From: Nitrospirota bacterium
GTDB lineage: Bacteria > Nitrospirota > JACRHJ01
Assembly (NCBI GenBank): GCA_021784575.1
Contig: JAJYHX010000001.1
Location: forward strand, 477,917 to 539,994
DNA length: 62,078 nucleotides
Reading direction: 5' to 3'
The first letter of the stretch is position 1, and each line of letters starts with the position of its first letter. The notes under the pieces are model-generated. The model ran no database searches and was not told where the DNA came from. It saw nothing but the letters and a program-made list of their open reading frames with translations. This document shows positions 33,891 to 43,773 of the stretch, piece by piece. The position numbers and the translations under genes were made by a program.

Positions 33891-34703
33891 ATGAAGGATC
33901 CCGTTTTGCGGCTGGACAGCCTGATAGATTATTTCAGGAATTTCAGGGGCGCGGCTGTGGCCTTCTCAGGCGGCGTGGACTCCTCCGTCGTGGCGGCCGC
34001 GGCTTTTCAGGCTCTTGGGGAAAGGTCGGTCGCCGTTACGGTGGCGTCCGAGTTCGTGCCCGCCTCCGAGATCGGGCAGGCGGCTTCGGTCGCGGGGGCT
34101 ATCGGCATCCGGCACGAGGTCTTGCGGTTGAACGTCCTGGAAGACGAGAAAATAGCCTCCAACCCGCCGGAGCGGTGCTATTACTGCAAGAGGGGCGATT
34201 TCGGCGCGATACTGGAAATCGCGGAACGGCGCGGTCTGGAAGTCTTCGACGGCACGAATGCCGACGATGCCAGGACAAGGCGGCCCGGCCTTAAGGCCCT
34301 CCTGGAGATGGGGATCAAAAGTCCGCTCAATGAGCTTAACATCGGCAAGGACGAGGTCAGGGAGATTGCGCGCCGGCTGAAGCTTCCTAATGCCGAGAGG
34401 CCCTCGTCTCCATGCCTGGCGAGCCGCTTCCCCTACGGGATGAGGATTATTGAGGACGACCTCGAACGCGTGGGTCAGGCGGAAGAGTTTCTCCGGTCGC
34501 TCGGGTTTTCCGAGCTTCGGGTGCGTCACCACGGCGCCCTGGCGAAGATAGAGCTTCCCGCGGGCGATATGCCGCTTGTCATGGCCCCGGAGACAAGAGA
34601 AAAAATTGTGGCAAAGCTCCTCTCGCTGGGTTATAATTACGTCGCCTTGGACCTTATGGGCTTCAGAAGCGGGAGCATGGACGAGGCTCTCCCGCCGGAG
34701 TAA
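33891..34703 (+). CDS. larE: ATP-dependent sacrificial sulfur transferase LarE
   Basis: A 270-residue PP-loop protein. The PP-loop is AFSGGVDSSVVAAAA. The RCYYCKRGD segment and the sulfur-donating cysteine region SSPCLASRFPYG match LarE, which sulfurates the pyridinium dicarboxylate precursor of the nickel-pincer cofactor of lactate racemase. LarB, LarC and LarA are not in the window. A flavin-linked 2-hydroxyacid dehydrogenase (38594-41262) is encoded downstream in the same run, and a link to lactate or another 2-hydroxyacid is possible but not shown. Confidence 0.88.
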   Translation: MKDPVLRLDSLIDYFRNFRGAAVAFSGGVDSSVVAAAAFQALGERSVAVTVASEFVPASEIGQAASVAGAIGIRHEVLRLNVLEDEKIASNPPERCYYCKRGDFGAILEIAERRGLEVFDGTNADDARTRRPGLKALLEMGIKSPLNELNIGKDEVREIARRLKLPNAERPSSPCLASRFPYGMRIIEDDLERVGQAEEFLRSLGFSELRVRHHGALAKIELPAGDMPLVMAPETREKIVAKLLSLGYNYVALDLMGFRSGSMDEALPPE

Positions 34704-35356: not shown

Positions 35357-35631
35357 AACGGATAATCCTCCTCCTTATCCTTGCCGGGTCTTTCTGGTTT
35401 TTCCTCGACAGGCTGCTTAAATTCCTTACGGGCCACGGCCCCGGCGGCGCGTCCTCGGGCGGCCATGTCCCGCAAGCGCGCAGCATAGAGGGCGACGAGA
35501 TGGTTTCGTGTATGCAGTGCAAGGTCTACGTGCCTGTCTCCCGCGCCGTGAAGAAGACCTTCGGCGGCAACACGCTCCATTTCTGCTCCGATGACTGCGC
35601 GAGAAACTTCCTGAAGAGGATAGACCGATGA
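35353..35631 (+). CDS. Small membrane-anchored protein with four-cysteine metal site; apparent ATA start
   Basis: A 92-residue frame with no ATG, GTG or TTG until 35500. Read from ATA 35353 it gives (M)ERIILLLILAGSFWFFLDRL, one membrane helix, a Gly-rich linker, and a C-terminal CMQC-x25-CSDDC cluster with a conserved VYVPVSRAV between. This resembles TRASH-like / PP0621-type zinc-binding domains. AAGGA lies 9 nt before the ATA, the ATA overlaps the preceding stop (ATAG), and the TGA stop overlaps the ATG of the methyltransferase (ATGA). The translated frame is therefore very likely real even though the start codon is unusual. An error in one base at the start is the main alternative. Confidence 0.65.
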   Translation: MERIILLLILAGSFWFFLDRLLKFLTGHGPGGASSGGHVPQARSIEGDEMVSCMQCKVYVPVSRAVKKTFGGNTLHFCSDDCARNFLKRIDR

Positions 35632-37253
35632 ACCAGCTCTATTTCGGCGACAACCTCGACGTCCTCCGTAAGGACATCCCCGACGACAGCGTCGATTTGA
35701 TATACCTCGACCCGCCGTTTAATTCCAAACGCGATTATAACCTGCTCTTTAAATCCCCGAAGGGGCACGACTCCGACGCGCAGATTACGGCGTTCGAGGA
35801 CTCATGGCACTGGGGCGAGCAGGCCGAGCGCGAGTTTGCCGAGATAATGCATCAGCCGAATACGGACGTCTCCGAGATAATGCAGGCGTTTCGCTCCTTC
35901 CTGAAAGAGAACGACATGCTGGCATACCTGACGATGATGGCGAACAGGCTCCTGGAACTTCACAAGGTGCTTAAGCCCACCGGCAGCCTATACCTGCACT
36001 GCGACCCGACCGCAAGCCATTACCTGAAGATCGTCCTGGACGGGGTGTTCGGGAAAGAGAATTACCGCACGGAAATTAGCTGGAAACGCTCAAGTGCCCA
36101 TAGTGACGCGAAACAGGGCAGGACACAATACGGCAATATCCGAGACATTATCTTCTTCTATACTAACAGCAAAAAATGGAAGTGGAATCAGCTTCACACC
36201 CCGTACAATCCGGAATACATAGAGAGCATGTATAGGTATAAAGAAGATGAAACGGGGAGAATATATCGCTTAGATAATTTAACGGGACCGGGCGGTGCGG
36301 GTAAAGGTAATCCCGCTTATGAAGTAATGGGAGTAACAAGATATTGGCGTTATTCTAAAAAGAAAATGAAAGAGTTAATAAAGCAGGGGCGGATTATTCA
36401 AACAAAGCCGGGTGGTGTCCCTGCTTATAAAAGATATTTAGATGAGATGCCCGGTGTCGCATTACAAAATGATTGGCAGGATATTAGCCCTTTATCGGGA
36501 AATGAATATCTCGGCTACCCGACTCAAAAACCCCTTGCGCTGCTTGAACGCATAATCATGGCGTCATCGAATGAAGGCGACACCGTCCTCGACCCTTTCT
36601 GCGGCTGCGGCACGGCAGTCCACGCGGCGCAGAAACTGAACCGCAGGTGGATAGGAATCGACATCACGCACCTTGCAATATCGCTAATCGAGAAACGGAT
36701 GCGGGACGCCTTCAAAGACGCCTCGCCGCCGCTGAAGTTCGATGTGCACGGGACGCCGAAAGACCTGGACGGCGCGCGCGAGCTTGCGGCCCGCGACAAA
36801 TATGAATTCCAATACTGGGCGTGCTCGCTTGTGAACGCGCAGCCTTACCAGGGAAAGAAAAAAGGCGCGGACAGGGGCATAGACGGCCTGATATTCTTCC
36901 AGGACGACAAGGGCCCTTCCAAGAAAATAATAGTATCCGTAAAGGGCGGCGAGAATATAAGCGTTGCAATGATACGCGACCTGGGGCATGTCATAGAGCG
37001 GGAAAAGGCGCAGATTGGCCTGTTCGTTACCCTTGCGGGCCCGACAAGGCCGATGGAGAGGGAGGCCGTAAGCGCGGGATATTACGAATCGCCGCATAAC
37101 GGCAATTTCCCGAAGATTCAGATTTTGACAATCGAGGGGTTGATGAACGGAACGGAGAAGCCGCGCTACCCGGATTTAAGCTCCGGCGGCCTTACCTTCA
37201 AACAGCCGAAAAAAGAAATTTATAATATCGAACAAGAGACGTTATTCGAATAA
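35628..37253 (+). CDS. Site-specific DNA methyltransferase fused to a C-terminal Mrr-like nuclease domain
   Basis: A 541-residue protein. The methyltransferase part is of beta order: motif IV LIYLDPPFNS at about 23, then the target-recognition region (about 145-300), then motif I with VLDPFCGCGTAVHAA at about 323. A C-terminal domain (about 385-500) has GADRGIDGLIFF and IIVSVKGG, the pattern of PD-(D/E)xK nucleases of the Mrr type. One chain could thus both methylate and cut, but it may also be only a methylase with a decayed nuclease. The DNA from about 36090 to 36530 (the recognition region) is far richer in A and T than the rest of the gene. ATG overlaps the previous stop. Confidence 0.85.
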   Translation: MNQLYFGDNLDVLRKDIPDDSVDLIYLDPPFNSKRDYNLLFKSPKGHDSDAQITAFEDSWHWGEQAEREFAEIMHQPNTDVSEIMQAFRSFLKENDMLAYLTMMANRLLELHKVLKPTGSLYLHCDPTASHYLKIVLDGVFGKENYRTEISWKRSSAHSDAKQGRTQYGNIRDIIFFYTNSKKWKWNQLHTPYNPEYIESMYRYKEDETGRIYRLDNLTGPGGAGKGNPAYEVMGVTRYWRYSKKKMKELIKQGRIIQTKPGGVPAYKRYLDEMPGVALQNDWQDISPLSGNEYLGYPTQKPLALLERIIMASSNEGDTVLDPFCGCGTAVHAAQKLNRRWIGIDITHLAISLIEKRMRDAFKDASPPLKFDVHGTPKDLDGARELAARDKYEFQYWACSLVNAQPYQGKKKGADRGIDGLIFFQDDKGPSKKIIVSVKGGENISVAMIRDLGHVIEREKAQIGLFVTLAGPTRPMEREAVSAGYYESPHNGNFPKIQILTIEGLMNGTEKPRYPDLSSGGLTFKQPKKEIYNIEQETLFE

Positions 37254-37271
37254 AAACAGGAGGCAATCCCA

Positions 37272-38591
37272 ATGTCCTTTGAGCGCGACCTGATCCGCTT
37301 CCCGGAGGCGGTAGACACGGAAGACTACGTCGTAGCGACATACTATCTCGAAACCCCGATGGACTTATACCAGGCCGCGAACGCCTTCGCCGCCGAGCAG
37401 TCCACGGGCACCTGGCAGAGGGTCGGCTACGAGACGGACGAAGTCCGCGAGAAGCACGGAATAAAGGTTCTGGGAATCTACCCTCTGCCCTATGAGCCCG
37501 CGTCTCCGAACCTCCCGACCGGCACGAAGATGACAGAGTTCGGCGCCGGTTCCGGCAGGATAAACGCGGCAGTGCTCCGGCTTGCCTTCCCGCACATAAA
37601 CTTCGGGCCGAAGATTCCGAACCTCCTGACGGCCGTAGCCGGGAACCTCTACGAGATGGGCGCGTTCACGGCAATCAAGCTTATCGACCTTGAATTCCCG
37701 AAGTCCTTCCTCAAGGACTTCACCGGGCCGCGCTTCGGGATAAAGGGGACGCGGGAGCTTGTCGGTGTCCACGGCCGCCCGCTTGTCGGCGCGATAATCA
37801 AGCCCTGCGTGGGGATAAGCGCAAAACAAATGGCCGAGCTCGCATACCAGGGCGCCAAGGGCGGCCTCGACTTCATAAAGGATGACGAGCTTATCGCGGA
37901 CACGTCTTACAATTCGCTCAAGGAGCGCGTGAAGGCCGTAACGGGCGCCTTGAAACGCGCGGAGGAGGAGACGGGCGGGAAGACGATGTATGCATTTAAC
38001 ATAACCGACCGCATGGACAGGATAAAATGCCTGCACGATATTGTCGTAGAGGGCGGCGGCATATGCGTTATGATAAACGTGGCGACGGCGGGGCTTGAAG
38101 CCATGCGCGAGCTTGCCGAGTATACGAAGGTGCCGATACACTGCCACAGGGACTTCGCCCCGATGTGGGCGCGCTCGCCCTACCTTGGCATAAGCTTCGC
38201 GTGCCTGACGAAGCTCTTCCGCCTGTGCGGGGCCGACCAGACGCACTGCGGCGCGATTTCCGGCAAACTCTACGAGACGGACGAGGAAGTCCTGGGGAAC
38301 ATGCGCGCCTGCATACACGGCTTCGGGAATATCGCCGAGACGATGCCGGTGTCATCCGGCGGGCAGTGGGCCGGCAAGGCGCCCATAAACAGGCGGAAGA
38401 TTGGCCACCTCGATTTCATCCACCTCTCCGGCGGCGGGATATACGCCCATCCGGGCGGGGCCGAGGCCGGGGCCAGGAGCGTGCGCGACGCCTGGGACGC
38501 GACGCTGAAGGATATACCCCTTGAGGAATACGCCAAAGACCACCCGGCCCTGAAAGCCGCGATGGAACATTTCGGCAGACCAGTGTATTAA
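37272..38591 (+). CDS. RuBisCO-like protein (form IV), large-subunit type, with most active-site residues kept
   Basis: A 439-residue protein with the full RuBisCO large-subunit fold. Residues matching the RuBisCO active site: Glu in AAEQSTGTW (42), Asn in AGNLYE (125), Lys in IIKPC (177), carbamate Lys and metal ligands in IKDDE (203, 205, 206), His-Arg in CHRDF (292, 293), His in ADQTHCG (325), loop-6 Lys in ISGKLY (332), and phosphate-binding SSGG and SGGG. Two differ: the Lys of KPK is Cys 179 and the His after HRxx is Ala 296. The body (FGPKIPNLLTAV, GLDFIKDDE, FNITDRMD) looks most like form IV proteins of the Chlorobium type. AGGAGG precedes the ATG. No phosphoribulokinase or small subunit is present. 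Confidence 0.88.
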   Translation: MSFERDLIRFPEAVDTEDYVVATYYLETPMDLYQAANAFAAEQSTGTWQRVGYETDEVREKHGIKVLGIYPLPYEPASPNLPTGTKMTEFGAGSGRINAAVLRLAFPHINFGPKIPNLLTAVAGNLYEMGAFTAIKLIDLEFPKSFLKDFTGPRFGIKGTRELVGVHGRPLVGAIIKPCVGISAKQMAELAYQGAKGGLDFIKDDELIADTSYNSLKERVKAVTGALKRAEEETGGKTMYAFNITDRMDRIKCLHDIVVEGGGICVMINVATAGLEAMRELAEYTKVPIHCHRDFAPMWARSPYLGISFACLTKLFRLCGADQTHCGAISGKLYETDEEVLGNMRACIHGFGNIAETMPVSSGGQWAGKAPINRRKIGHLDFIHLSGGGIYAHPGGAEAGARSVRDAWDATLKDIPLEEYAKDHPALKAAMEHFGRPVY

Positions 38592-38593
38592 AA

Positions 38594-39997
38594 TTGGGAC
38601 CGGACCTCGAAGAAAAACTGACCTCTCTCCTCTCGCCGGAGGAGGTCGTGACCGGGCCGGAGGCGGCTGTCCTCTACGGCGGGGATTCCACCCGCGTATC
38701 CGGGCGGCCGGATGCCGTCGTGCGGCCCGCTTCCGCAGAATCCATCCGGCTGGTCATGGAATACGCCGCGAGGGAGCGCGTCCCTGTTACGCCGCGCGGA
38801 GCCGGGTCGGGGCTTTCCGGCGGATGCGTCCCGGCAAAGGGCGGTGTTGTCGTTTCCACCGAGCGGCTGAACCGCATAATCGACATCGACACGGCGGACC
38901 TGATTGCCGTTGTCGAGCCGGGGGTAATAACCGCGTCGCTCCATTCGGCGTCCGAGGCCCTGGGATTTTTCTATCCGCCCGACCCCGGCAGCTCCGCGTT
39001 CTGCACGCTGGGCGGGAACGTCGCCGAAAACGCCGGGGGACTGCGGGGCCTCAAATACGGTGTCACGCGCGATTACGTCATGGCGCTCGACATCGCGCTC
39101 CCGGACGGGCGGACTTTTACGGCCGGTTCGCGCACGCGCAAGAACGTAACCGGCTACGACATGGCCCGGCTTTTCACCGGCTCGGAAGGGACGCTTGGGT
39201 TTATTACGAAGGCCGCGCTCAGGCTCATCCCACTCCCGGAGGCAAGGGCGGGCTTCCTCGCCGCGTTCGATACGCTTGAGGCGGCGTCCGGGGCCGTGCT
39301 CATGATTATAAAATCCGGCATCACTCCCTCGACGCTTGAGATAATGGACGCGGTAACGCTCAAGGCCGTGGCGTCATACCTCCGCGCCAACTCGCCCTTT
39401 GACGGGAGAGGGGACGGCGGAAATGGTGCGCCGGGCGCGCTCCTGCTGATTGAAGTGGACGGCTCCGAGGCGGACGTTGTCAGGCAGTCCGGGAGGCTTC
39501 TGGACGCGCTGAAGGATTCGGGCGCGAAGGAACTTCGGCAGGCGAAAGACACGGCGGAGCAGGAGGAAATCTGGGCGGCAAGGCGCGCGGCGCTCACGGC
39601 GCTGGCGAGGATTTCGCCCTCCGTCATCCTTGAAGACGCAACCGTGCCTAGGAAAGAGATTCCGGCGATGGTAAGGGCTATTCGCAATGTCGCGGAAAAA
39701 TATTGTCTTCTCATCGGCACGTTCGGCCATGCGGGCGACGGGAACCTGCACCCGACGATAGTCACGGATCTGCGCGTCGAGGAAAATAAGAATAAAGTCA
39801 AGGCCGCCGTGGGCGAGATATTCGACGCGGCGCTGAGTCTCGGCGGGACGCTCTCCGGCGAGCACGGCATAGGGATTATGAAATCGGACTACATGGAGCG
39901 GGAACTCGGAGAGGCGGGAGTCTCCGCCATGCGCAAGGTCAAGGACGCCCTCGACCCGCAGGGGATAATGAACCCCGGGAAGATATTTAAAGGTTGA
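38594..39997 (+). CDS. glcD: FAD-linked 2-hydroxyacid oxidase subunit (GlcD-like)
   Basis: A 467-residue flavoprotein of the glycolate oxidase / D-lactate dehydrogenase group. The FAD-binding PCMH domain has VTPRGAGSGLSGGCVP, GGNVAENAGGLRGLKYG and GSEGTLGFIT. The C-terminal domain has TFGHAGDGNLHPT and SGEHGIGIMK. The TTG start lies 2 nt after the RuBisCO-like gene. It pairs with the iron-sulfur subunit gene that follows, so the enzyme oxidises a 2-hydroxyacid (glycolate, D-lactate or similar) and passes electrons to the membrane quinone pool or another carrier. No GlcE subunit gene is present. Confidence 0.92.
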   Translation: MGPDLEEKLTSLLSPEEVVTGPEAAVLYGGDSTRVSGRPDAVVRPASAESIRLVMEYAARERVPVTPRGAGSGLSGGCVPAKGGVVVSTERLNRIIDIDTADLIAVVEPGVITASLHSASEALGFFYPPDPGSSAFCTLGGNVAENAGGLRGLKYGVTRDYVMALDIALPDGRTFTAGSRTRKNVTGYDMARLFTGSEGTLGFITKAALRLIPLPEARAGFLAAFDTLEAASGAVLMIIKSGITPSTLEIMDAVTLKAVASYLRANSPFDGRGDGGNGAPGALLLIEVDGSEADVVRQSGRLLDALKDSGAKELRQAKDTAEQEEIWAARRAALTALARISPSVILEDATVPRKEIPAMVRAIRNVAEKYCLLIGTFGHAGDGNLHPTIVTDLRVEENKNKVKAAVGEIFDAALSLGGTLSGEHGIGIMKSDYMERELGEAGVSAMRKVKDALDPQGIMNPGKIFKG

Positions 39998-40008
39998 CAA
40001 AACCAGCA

Positions 40009-41262
40009 ATGTCTAATTTAACGAACTACTCCGACGAGATATTCAAGTGCATACGATGCGGGGCGTGCAGGGCGGTATGTCCGACGTTCGGCGAGGAGCT
40101 TGACGAGATCGCCGTCGCCAGGGGCAGGATGGCGCTAATCGAGGCCGTGACGGGAGGCGAGCTTGCCCTCACGGACGCATTCGAGAAGGCGGTCTTTGAC
40201 TGCGCGATGTGCGGGGCCTGCAAGGCCGGGTGTCCCTCCGGCGTGGACGTGCCCGCCGTTATCGAGGCCGCGCGCGCGGAGCTTGTGGAGAAGAAGCGGA
40301 GCGAGGGGCTTATCCGTTTCCTGGCCCGTAAGTCCCTCAGGGACAAGAAGTCCCTCGACCGCGCGTTCTCCCTGATGGCCCTTGGGCGCGCAGCATACGG
40401 CCCGCTTGCCGCGACGCCTCTTGCGAAATACCTGCCTTACCAGTACGAGGACTTCAAGCGCAACTTCCCGAAGATCCCGCGGAAACCCCTGTCGAAGCGC
40501 ATCCCGCCCGTATCGCGCGTCCGGAACGCGAAGGGGACCGTGCTCTTCTATGCCGGGTGCGTCATAAACTACGTGTATCCGGAAATCGGCGTTGCGGCGG
40601 TGAAGGTATTGAACCACGCGGGGTACGATGTCGTGTTTGCGAAGGAAGAACCGTGCTGCGGCAAGCCTCTCCTGTCCCTCGGCGAGACCGGGGTTTTCCG
40701 TTCCGTCGCCGAAAAGAACGTATCCCTGCTCTCAGGCGTGGAGGCGGATTTTATCGTATCGGCATGTCCTACATGCTCCTTGACATTGAGGGACGACTAT
40801 CCTACAATCTTGACCGAAACCGCCTCGGACAAGGCTGCGGCAATATCGGCGAAGGTGCGCGATATAAACGAATTCCTCCTGCACGAGACGGATTTCATAG
40901 CAAGGCTCGACGCGGCGGAGATGATTATCACATACCATGACCCGTGCCACCTTGCGCACGGGATGGGCGTGAAAAAAGAACCGCGCGAGCTCCTCGACGC
41001 GGCGACTCTCGGCGGCTTGGTGGAGATGCGGGAGGCGTCGCGTTGCTGCGGGTTCGGGGGCAGCTTCAGCTTCCTGAACTACGAACTCTCCGGCAGGATT
41101 GCGAACAGGAAGGTCAGGAATATCATAAATACCGGCGTGCCCGCAGTCGTTACGGCGTGCCCCGGGTGCATGATGCACATAGGTGACGCGCTAAGGCAGT
41201 CCGGCTCGGATGCTGTCGCTTTCCATACGCTCCAGATATTCGAGAAGGCCATCAAAAGATAA
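40009..41262 (+). CDS. glcF: Iron-sulfur subunit of 2-hydroxyacid oxidase (GlcF-like)
   Basis: About 417 residues. Two ferredoxin-type clusters are present at the N-terminus, [12 protein letters not shown] and [12 protein letters not shown], followed by two CCG domains (EEPCCGKPL and ASRCCGFGG), the layout of GlcF and heterodisulfide reductase D-type subunits. It receives electrons from the GlcD-like flavoprotein. The frame is open from TTG 39994, which overlaps the previous stop, but ATG 40009 fits the family's usual N-terminus better; neither has an ideal ribosome site. Confidence 0.9.
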
Positions 41263-41276
41263 GGGGGAATATCCGC

Positions 41277-41927
41277 ATGAAATTTTTTATCGACACCGCA
41301 AACGTGGAAGAAATACGCGAGGCCGTGAGCCTCGGGGTGATAGACGGCGTTACGACGAACCCGTCGCTTGTCGCAAAGGAGAAGCGCGATTTTAAAGAGC
41401 TTATCTCCGAGATCTGCACCATCGTCGACGGCCCCATATCCGCCGAGGCGGTAAGCCTCGACGCGCCGGGGATGATCGCCGAGGGCCTGGAGCTTGCGAG
41501 TATGGACAAGGACAAGATCGTCGTGAAGATACCCATGACGAAGGAGGGCCTCAAGGCCTGCAAGCAGCTCAGCTCCCTGGGGATCAAGACCAACGTGACG
41601 CTTGTTTTCTCGCCCTCGCAGGCGCTCCTTGCGGCCAAGGCCGGCGCGACTTACGTCTCTCCATTCGTCGGCAGGCTCGACGACATCTCGCACGACGGCA
41701 TGGACCTAATCGAGAAGATTGTGACAATCTTCGGGAACTACGATTATAAATCGGAGGTCATCGTTGCGTCTATCCGGAACCCGCTACACGTAATCGACGC
41801 GGCGCTGATGGGCGCGCACGTGGCGACGATTCCGTTCAGCGTCATCGACGCCCTCGTGAAGCACCCGCTCACGGACATCGGCATCCAGAAGTTCCTCAAG
41901 GACTGGGAGAAAGTGCCGAAGAGGTAA
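41277..41927 (+). CDS. Fructose-6-phosphate aldolase / small transaldolase (TalC/FSA type)
   Basis: A 216-residue class I aldolase of the short transaldolase family. Motifs are [24 protein letters not shown], the Schiff-base Lys in [12 protein letters not shown], and [10 protein letters not shown]. Members act either as transaldolase or as fructose-6-phosphate (dihydroxyacetone-using) aldolase, and sequence alone does not decide. GGGGG precedes the ATG. It lies 14 nt after the GlcF-like gene, so the RuBisCO-like protein, oxidase and aldolase are probably made together. Confidence 0.92.
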
Positions 41928-42351: not shown

Positions 42352-43773
42352 ATGGACTGGCGCGACGAGGCCTGGCGGGAGAATCTGAGGATAGCTCTCG
42401 ATTACAACTCCGTAACCACCCGTTTTATTGGAAAAAACGGCATCTCAGAGGCGGAGATTAAAGCGCTTCTGCCTAAGGCGCGGGAGGCCCGCGAATCGCT
42501 TTCAAAGGGCAGGAGCGAGGGAATTTACCCGTTCTTCGACCTCCCATACCAAGACACCTCGCTCATAAAACAACTTGCCGACGACATAGCTAACCGGGCG
42601 GAAAATTTCGTTTTATTGGGCATCGGCGGCTCGGCCCTGGGGCCGATTGCCCTGCACACGGCCTTAAGGCATCCATACCATAACCTGCTCACGCCCCGGG
42701 GACGCGGGAAGCGCCCCAGGATGTTCTTTATGGACAATGTTGACCCGGACGCCTTCGGAAGCCTCCTTGAGCAATTAAACCTCGATAAAACAATCTGTTG
42801 CGTCGTTACAAAGTCCGGCGGGACAGCCGAGACGATGGCCCAGTTCATGGTCGTGCGCTCCATCATGCAGAAGGCGCTCGGCAAGAGAGAACTTAAAAAA
42901 CATTTCGTCTGCATAACCGACCCTGTGAAGGGGAACTTAAGAAAAATAGTGCAATCTGAAAGGCTTACGTCTCTTGAAGTCCCGCCTGGCGTAGGCGGGA
43001 GGTTCTCGGTATTTACGCCTGTCGGGCTGCTCCCGGCGGCGGTTTCCGGGATCGACATAGACGAGCTCCTGGCGGGCGCGGCGGATATGGACAGGCGGAC
43101 TCGTGAGCGGGATTCCCTTAAAAATCAGGCGGATATGCTTGCCATGCTGCAATATCTCGCGGACAGGAAGGGCCGGCATATCTCGGTTATGATGCCGTAT
43201 TCCAGCGCGCTCAGGGATATTGCGGACTGGTACAGGCAGATTTGGGCGGAATCCCTGGGGAAACGCCTTGATTTAAAAGGGAATATAGTGCATACCGGCC
43301 AGACGCCCGTGAAGGCCCTTGGGACGACCGACCAGCACTCGCAGGTCCAGCTATACATGGAAGGCCCAAGCGATAAAATCTTTATTTTTCTTAGGGTTGA
43401 AAGCTTCGGGCGCGAGCTTCCGATACCGAAAATATATAAGGATATTGATGGGATAGCATACCTCGGCGGACATACGATGGCCGAGCTTATCAATGCGGAA
43501 CAGGCGGCGACAGAGGCCGCGCTGGCAAGGGCCGGGCGGCCTTCCATGACAATCCGCATACCGGAGGCGCGGCCCTTCACAGTGGGCCAAGTCCTTTATT
43601 TGCTTGAGGTTTCCACGGCTATGGCCGGGGGGCTTTACGGCATTAATCCGTTCGACCAGCCGGGCGTCGAGGAAGGGAAAATTCTGACTTACGCGATGAT
43701 GGGCAGGCCGGGCTTCGAGGAAAAGCAGGCGGAACTTGAGAAGGTGAAAAAGAGGCCGGAATACGTGATTTAA
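42352..43773 (+). CDS. pgi: Glucose-6-phosphate isomerase
   Basis: A 473-residue enzyme interconverting glucose-6-phosphate and fructose-6-phosphate. It has GIGGSALGPIALHTAL, VVTKSGGTAETMAQF, the catalytic region GTTDQHSQVQLYMEG, and a C-terminal GINPFDQPGVEEGK. This is the shorter Pgi form found in many anaerobes. GGAGG stands 7 nt before the ATG. Separated from the preceding run by 148 nt with a long palindrome, so it may have its own promoter. Confidence 0.95.
   Translation: MDWRDEAWRENLRIALDYNSVTTRFIGKNGISEAEIKALLPKAREARESLSKGRSEGIYPFFDLPYQDTSLIKQLADDIANRAENFVLLGIGGSALGPIALHTALRHPYHNLLTPRGRGKRPRMFFMDNVDPDAFGSLLEQLNLDKTICCVVTKSGGTAETMAQFMVVRSIMQKALGKRELKKHFVCITDPVKGNLRKIVQSERLTSLEVPPGVGGRFSVFTPVGLLPAAVSGIDIDELLAGAADMDRRTRERDSLKNQADMLAMLQYLADRKGRHISVMMPYSSALRDIADWYRQIWAESLGKRLDLKGNIVHTGQTPVKALGTTDQHSQVQLYMEGPSDKIFIFLRVESFGRELPIPKIYKDIDGIAYLGGHTMAELINAEQAATEAALARAGRPSMTIRIPEARPFTVGQVLYLLEVSTAMAGGLYGINPFDQPGVEEGKILTYAMMGRPGFEEKQAELEKVKKRPEYVI

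Follow-up and report, generated by a model that had tools for sequence, protein, structure and literature searches.

The window analysed here, a 62,078-nucleotide stretch of a contig from a Nitrospirota bacterium, carries on its forward strand a 439-residue open reading frame (37272–38591), preceded on the same strand by an AGGAGG ribosome-binding site read from the sequence (37258–37263). Its product is a RuBisCO-like protein (RLP) that matches Pfam RuBisCO_large (2.6e-66) and RuBisCO_large_N (1.3e-12), both above cut-off, and these two domains together with the large-subunit α/β-barrel fold place it within the RuBisCO superfamily. The solved folds closest to its AlphaFold2 model (mean pLDDT 92.3) are the RLPs 1YKW/1TEL, 2QYG and 3NWR, with form III RuBisCOs next, and TM-scores to RLP and RuBisCO structures span 0.82–0.93. 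A chance reading frame is excluded by the existence of homologues at 48–95% identity and by a pN of 0.030 against a pS of 0.458, measured on the 95%-identical homologue L003; strong purifying selection acts on the gene. It is the sole RuBisCO-family gene found in its genome (2.1 Mb, 97% complete).

Four further genes follow on the forward strand. A GlcD-type FAD-linked 2-hydroxyacid dehydrogenase with FAD_binding_4 and FAD-oxidase_C domains (38594–39997) begins 2 nt past the RLP stop codon, and is overlapped by 4 nt by a GlcF/LdhH-type iron-sulfur partner subunit (39994–41262) with a 4Fe-4S and two CCG domains. A TalC/FSA-type transaldolase of the fructose-6-phosphate aldolase family (41277–41927; TIGR00875, 333 bits, cut-off 246) lies 14 nt after glcF, and a glucose-6-phosphate isomerase, Pgi (42352–43773), follows talC after a gap of 424 nt that makes its operon membership uncertain. 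The resulting order is RLP–glcD–glcF–talC–pgi. The pgi order is kept in the same-genus loci L002 and L003, and talC is also linked to the RLP gene in L007 and L016. The window GlcD scores 467.5 bits against TIGR00387, below the cut-off of 567.9, and is best described as a family-level homologue whose substrate could therefore be another 2-hydroxyacid; all GlcD and GlcF scores lie under their equivalog cut-offs. Upstream, a DNA methyltransferase with an Mrr-type domain (35628–37253) ends 18 nt before the RLP gene. Identity to its counterpart in L003 is only 41%, against 75–95% for the genes on either side, a contrast that exchange of a restriction-modification gene would produce. Farther out, 2.6 kb ahead of the RLP gene and the neighboring 2-hydroxyacid dehydrogenase, is a LarE-type sulfur transferase (33891–34703; 287 bits, cut-off 150); proteins of this type are associated in other bacteria with the cofactor of lactate racemase.

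To compare catalytic residues, the RLP was aligned with MAFFT to crystallized RuBisCOs of forms I, II and III and to RLPs, and 19 canonical active-site residues were counted identically in all groups, using spinach numbering. The window RLP retains 17 of these 19. With its own numbering given first, the matched residues are K177 (K175), K203 (K201), D205 (D203), E206 (E204), H292 (H294), R293 (R295), H325 (H327), K332 (K334), S362-G363-G364 (S379-G380-G381) and G387-G388 (G403-G404), as well as E42 (E60), T47 (T65), W48 (W66) and N125 (N123). Apart from the last four, all of these stand in the first-pass annotation, which had listed the two lysines with their acidic metal ligands, the His-Arg pair, the second histidine, the loop-6 lysine and the glycine-rich phosphate sites as retained, and had noted that Cys 179 and Ala 296 replace a lysine and a histidine of RuBisCO. 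It had allowed that these residues, matched by eye, might be misaligned; the alignment reproduces every one of the assignments and identifies the two substitutions as K177C and H298A. At these two positions the protein departs from the full complement of 19 residues that serves as the criterion for RuBisCO forms I–III. Spinach numbering is used hereafter.

Set against other families, the retained set is what one section of form IV usually shows and is not unique to the window RLP. True RuBisCOs keep 18–19 of the 19 sites. The clade formed by the RLP and its closest relatives (the window clade) keeps a mean of 15.8 and a maximum of 18 (L012); the OiaX/XacX group keeps 11–15, with a mean of 14.3, and an Actinomycetota RLP group 13–15, with a mean of 14.8. 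The earlier generalization that form IV proteins usually lose more of these residues thus holds for the IV-Photo, MtnW, DeepYkr and Leptospirillum-type RLPs, each with 9–10 sites, and does not extend to the OiaX/XacX and Actinomycetota groups. Because the whole OiaX/XacX group keeps 11–15 residues, the pattern is less exceptional than had first appeared. Within the window clade Cys at 177 is near-invariant (Asn in L016), and K177 is missing from every member while being kept by every RuBisCO in the set. Position 298 is variable, occupied by Ala, His, Phe or Ser. The L012 RLP (L012:2637-3902) has His at 298, so that Cys in place of K177 is its single difference from RuBisCO among the 19 sites. 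At the other extreme, the divergent members L014, L017, L089 and L090 lack E60 and N123, and the clade may therefore not be functionally uniform. In another Nitrospirota family, L091 and L092 encode a large subunit resembling true RuBisCO with Tyr at H298, the L092 copy being broken by a TGA codon.

Among 84,980 scanned species genomes, 16 loci (L002–L017) show ≥47% identity to the window RLP; their hosts are metagenome-assembled genomes labelled Nitrospirae, Bacillota, Actinomycetes, Chloroflexota, TA06 and Goldiibacteriota. Below these, identity drops to about 40–47% in Cohnella/Paenibacillus and others. Among Nitrospirota the clade is present in 10 of 396 genomes, one of them as a fragment, in three families. 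Separately, most members of the Nitrospirota family f10 (L094–L109) encode several divergent RLPs, two or three in each genome. In the IQ-TREE phylogeny the window clade is monophyletic (support 94/84) and lies on short branches near the form IV/RuBisCO split. The best tree places it as sister to the OiaX/XacX apiose-pathway RLPs (96/87) and outside that group, whose own stem is supported at 100/100; the IV-Photo and Leptospirillum-type RLPs occupy a different branch, and MtnW, DeepYkr and the Actinomycetota RLPs group with one another, likewise apart from it. The DeepYkr sequences (L197-type) were recognized from their similarity to PDB 3QFW (2.7e-122), which we take to be R. palustris RLP1. 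An approximately unbiased (AU) test rejects the joining of the window clade to the Cys-177 Actinomycetota group (p = 0.0004), ruling out a single clade for all Cys-177 RLPs. By contrast, it does not reject true RuBisCO as the sister group (p = 0.15), and the clade may therefore hold a position intermediate between form IV and RuBisCO. Profile scores fall below the curated cut-offs as well: its best NCBIfam match, OiaX NF042437, reaches 325.6 bits against a cut-off of 700, and MtnW TIGR03332 228 bits against 513.6. The best tree supports the earlier description of the protein as form IV-like, and places it outside every characterized clade. No published assay of any clade member was found in the literature, and the window RLP belongs to a real, conserved and uncharacterized RLP clade.

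Each of the better-known relatives resembles the window RLP in part. RuBisCO forms I, II and III share with it the 17 active-site residues and a fold at a TM-score of about 0.85, yet differ at K177 and H298, are 28–38% identical, and stand apart from it in the best tree, which places it in form IV. The IV-Photo proteins of Chlorobaculum tepidum (1TEL/1YKW) and Rhodopseudomonas palustris (RLP2, 2QYG) are, of the solved structures, the closest both in fold and in sequence score, at about 38% identity, but keep 9 of the 19 residues and sit elsewhere in the tree. MtnW and DeepYkr, of methionine salvage, have the fold and the carbamate lysine in common with it, but keep 10 of the 19 without R295, H327 or K334 and form a separate branch. 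A second uncharacterized group with Cys 177, the Actinomycetota RLPs (L208–L224, except L212), also features Ala or Ser at 298; in these, however, R295 is replaced by Met or Leu and H327 by Val or Ile, giving a hydrophobic distal phosphate site. The Actinomycetota gene usually follows an FGGY xylulokinase-like gene, as in six of the loci examined, and the RLP gene of L229 has rhamnulokinase-, aldolase- and isomerase-type genes near it.

The closest comparison is with the RLPs of the D-apiose pathway, the 3-oxo-isoapionate-4-phosphate decarboxylase OiaX and the transcarboxylase/hydrolase XacX (PMC6302742). The window RLP is 36–47% identical to these proteins, and the core residues K175, K201, D203, E204, H294, R295 and K334 are retained in both groups. 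It differs from them in having W66 and S379-G380-G381, where OiaX/XacX typically have Phe and SS(G/A), and Cys rather than Ser or Asn at 177. The XacX reaction yields glycolate and 3-phosphoglycerate. The two groups also differ in genomic content: a DUF1537 kinase (PF07005), the four-carbon acid sugar kinase normally encoded next to OiaX/XacX genes, was detected in 0 of 19 window-clade genomes and in 8 of 8 OiaX-group genomes, and a homologue occurs in the neighborhood of 56 of the 67 OiaX-group loci. This absence rules out the known apiose pathway for the window clade.

Gene context is the best clue to the function of the RLP. GlcD-type genes lie no more than two genes from the RLP gene in five lineages, namely the window genus (with L002 and L003), L005, L009, L010 and L011. 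In L009, a Bacillota genome, the RLP neighbor is a GlcD–GlcE fusion followed by GlcF. In L012 the RLP gene runs off its contig and the same genome holds a similar GlcDE–GlcF set cut at a contig start, making RLP–GlcDE adjacency plausible there too. The RLP-linked GlcDs do not form one orthologous cassette in the GlcD tree, in which several branches are weak and two sequences long; this tree lends no support to a single, vertically inherited RLP–GlcD cassette, and suggests instead that the association arose repeatedly. Linkage was found at 5 of 13 dereplicated window-clade loci, against 2 of 67 OiaX/XacX loci with GlcD plus GlcF (Fisher p = 0.0009, approximate, since the loci share ancestry and are not fully independent). 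At the other eight of the 13 loci the RLP gene lies amid housekeeping genes rather than beside GlcD. The Nitrospirota also have a second GlcD paralogue that is unlinked to the RLP.

Known RLPs have enediolate formation in common and vary in the later steps, which include reprotonation, oxygenation and transcarboxylation (reviewed in PMC10176493). The set of residues for enolization, carboxylation and hydrolysis is complete in the window RLP (E60, N123, K175, K201, D203, E204, H294, H327 and K334), and the protein is probably metal-dependent and carbamylated. E60, N123 and H327 are absent from the annotated OiaX decarboxylases L112 and L113, and are kept by most of the OiaX/XacX group and of the window clade. 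This retention, together with the adjoining GlcD/E/F genes, makes an XacX-like reaction the best supported of the readings considered, and we tentatively propose that the RLP is an enediolate enzyme that carries out carboxylation and hydrolysis to release a 2-hydroxyacid, probably glycolate, for oxidation by GlcDF. In such a reaction, Mg2+ held by the carbamylated K201 with D203 and E204 would bind a small ketose phosphate or 3-keto-acid phosphate, and K175 and the metal center would form the enediolate. CO2, either free or derived from the substrate's own carboxylate, would be positioned by the loop-6 K334, and hydrolysis of the resulting β-keto acid across C2–C3 would yield 3-phosphoglycerate together with a 2-hydroxyacid, of which glycolate is the likeliest. 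Oxidation of the released acid would fall to the GlcD/GlcF-type dehydrogenase, and talC and pgi would connect these steps with the sugar phosphates of central metabolism. The suggestion in the first-pass annotation that the protein may act on a sugar phosphate other than that of RuBisCO is the likeliest reading. Further considerations weigh against the XacX-like proposal, besides the housekeeping neighbors at eight loci and the divergent members: GlcD-type enzymes also accept D-lactate and other 2-hydroxyacids, and the K177C and H298A substitutions may have cost the protein some steps of the RuBisCO cycle.

Other reactions would fit parts of the same evidence. The RLP might do no more than decarboxylate, epimerize or enolize a sugar-acid phosphate, OiaX-like without cleavage, in which case the linkage to GlcDF would be incidental central metabolism. 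The annotated members of the sister OiaX family are decarboxylases and RLP neighbors at many loci are housekeeping genes, and we regard this as the most serious competitor, albeit an unlikely one: the association with GlcD is seen in five lineages whose GlcDs are not orthologous, and most members retain the residues needed solely for carboxylation and hydrolysis. There is a slim chance that the clade includes true carboxylases acting on some ketose monophosphate instead of RuBP, with GlcDF again oxidizing a 2-hydroxyacid product; erythrulose-phosphate, for example, would give 3-phosphoglycerate and glycolate, and 5-deoxyribulose-1-phosphate would give 3-phosphoglycerate and D-lactate. Such enzymes would be CO2-fixing form IV proteins in several phyla. 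That the RLP truly carboxylates RuBP and represents a divergent branch of RuBisCO, as its 17 of 19 residues, the 18 of 19 in L012 and the AU result for sisterhood with true RuBisCO (p = 0.15) might suggest, is highly improbable given that the whole clade lacks the K177 that every RuBisCO in the set keeps and that the best tree unites it with form IV. Moreover, the sole PF01008 protein of the window genome is MtnA, with a score under the cut-off for ribose-1,5-bisphosphate isomerase; this way of making RuBP is therefore not in evidence, and a nucleotide-type RuBisCO pathway was set aside.

Salvage of a by-product of S-adenosylmethionine was also considered, with the RLP acting after MtnA as an enolase or isomerase on a derivative of 5'-methylthioadenosine (MTA), 5'-deoxyadenosine or S-adenosylhomocysteine, in the manner of MtnW and DeepYkr. 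One MtnA-type (PF01008) protein is encoded in 18 of 19 clade genomes, and that of the window genome qualifies as a genuine MtnA (TIGR00512, 443.6 bits, cut-off 279); however, PF01008 occurs in 375 of 396 Nitrospirota, so that the MtnA count is uninformative. MtnB/Ald2-type aldolases (PF00596) are absent from 15 of the 19 clade genomes, including all eight of high quality, but in families f1 and f23 the genomes that lack the RLP are likewise missing from the PF00596-positive set, and this absence is independent of the RLP. At one Actinomycetes locus (L010:175-3548) the RLP gene comes third in a row after genes for purine nucleoside phosphorylase and adenosylhomocysteinase, yet that phosphorylase is of the inosine/guanosine type rather than MTAP. 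Pathway genes in common were not found in the MtnA neighborhoods. R295, H327 and K334 are replaced in MtnW and DeepYkr, and the first two of these in the Actinomycetota group, whereas most of the window clade keeps all three and with them a polar distal phosphate site; the tree likewise places the clade apart from MtnW and DeepYkr. On these grounds 5'-deoxyadenosine/MTA salvage was demoted, and we consider it improbable.

Reactions are known for few RLPs, and the clade may bear on the relationship between carboxylation and the superfamily's other enediolate chemistry. The window clade combines a near-full catalytic set with a recurrent link to 2-hydroxyacid dehydrogenases that points to a class of product. 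The L012 relative, one of 19 sites away from RuBisCO, makes the effect of K177 directly testable, and the clade would gain much interest if any of its members carboxylates a substrate. Should the RLP indeed carry out carboxylation or transcarboxylation with C–C cleavage, RuBisCO-type chemistry would survive on other sugar phosphates in form IV.
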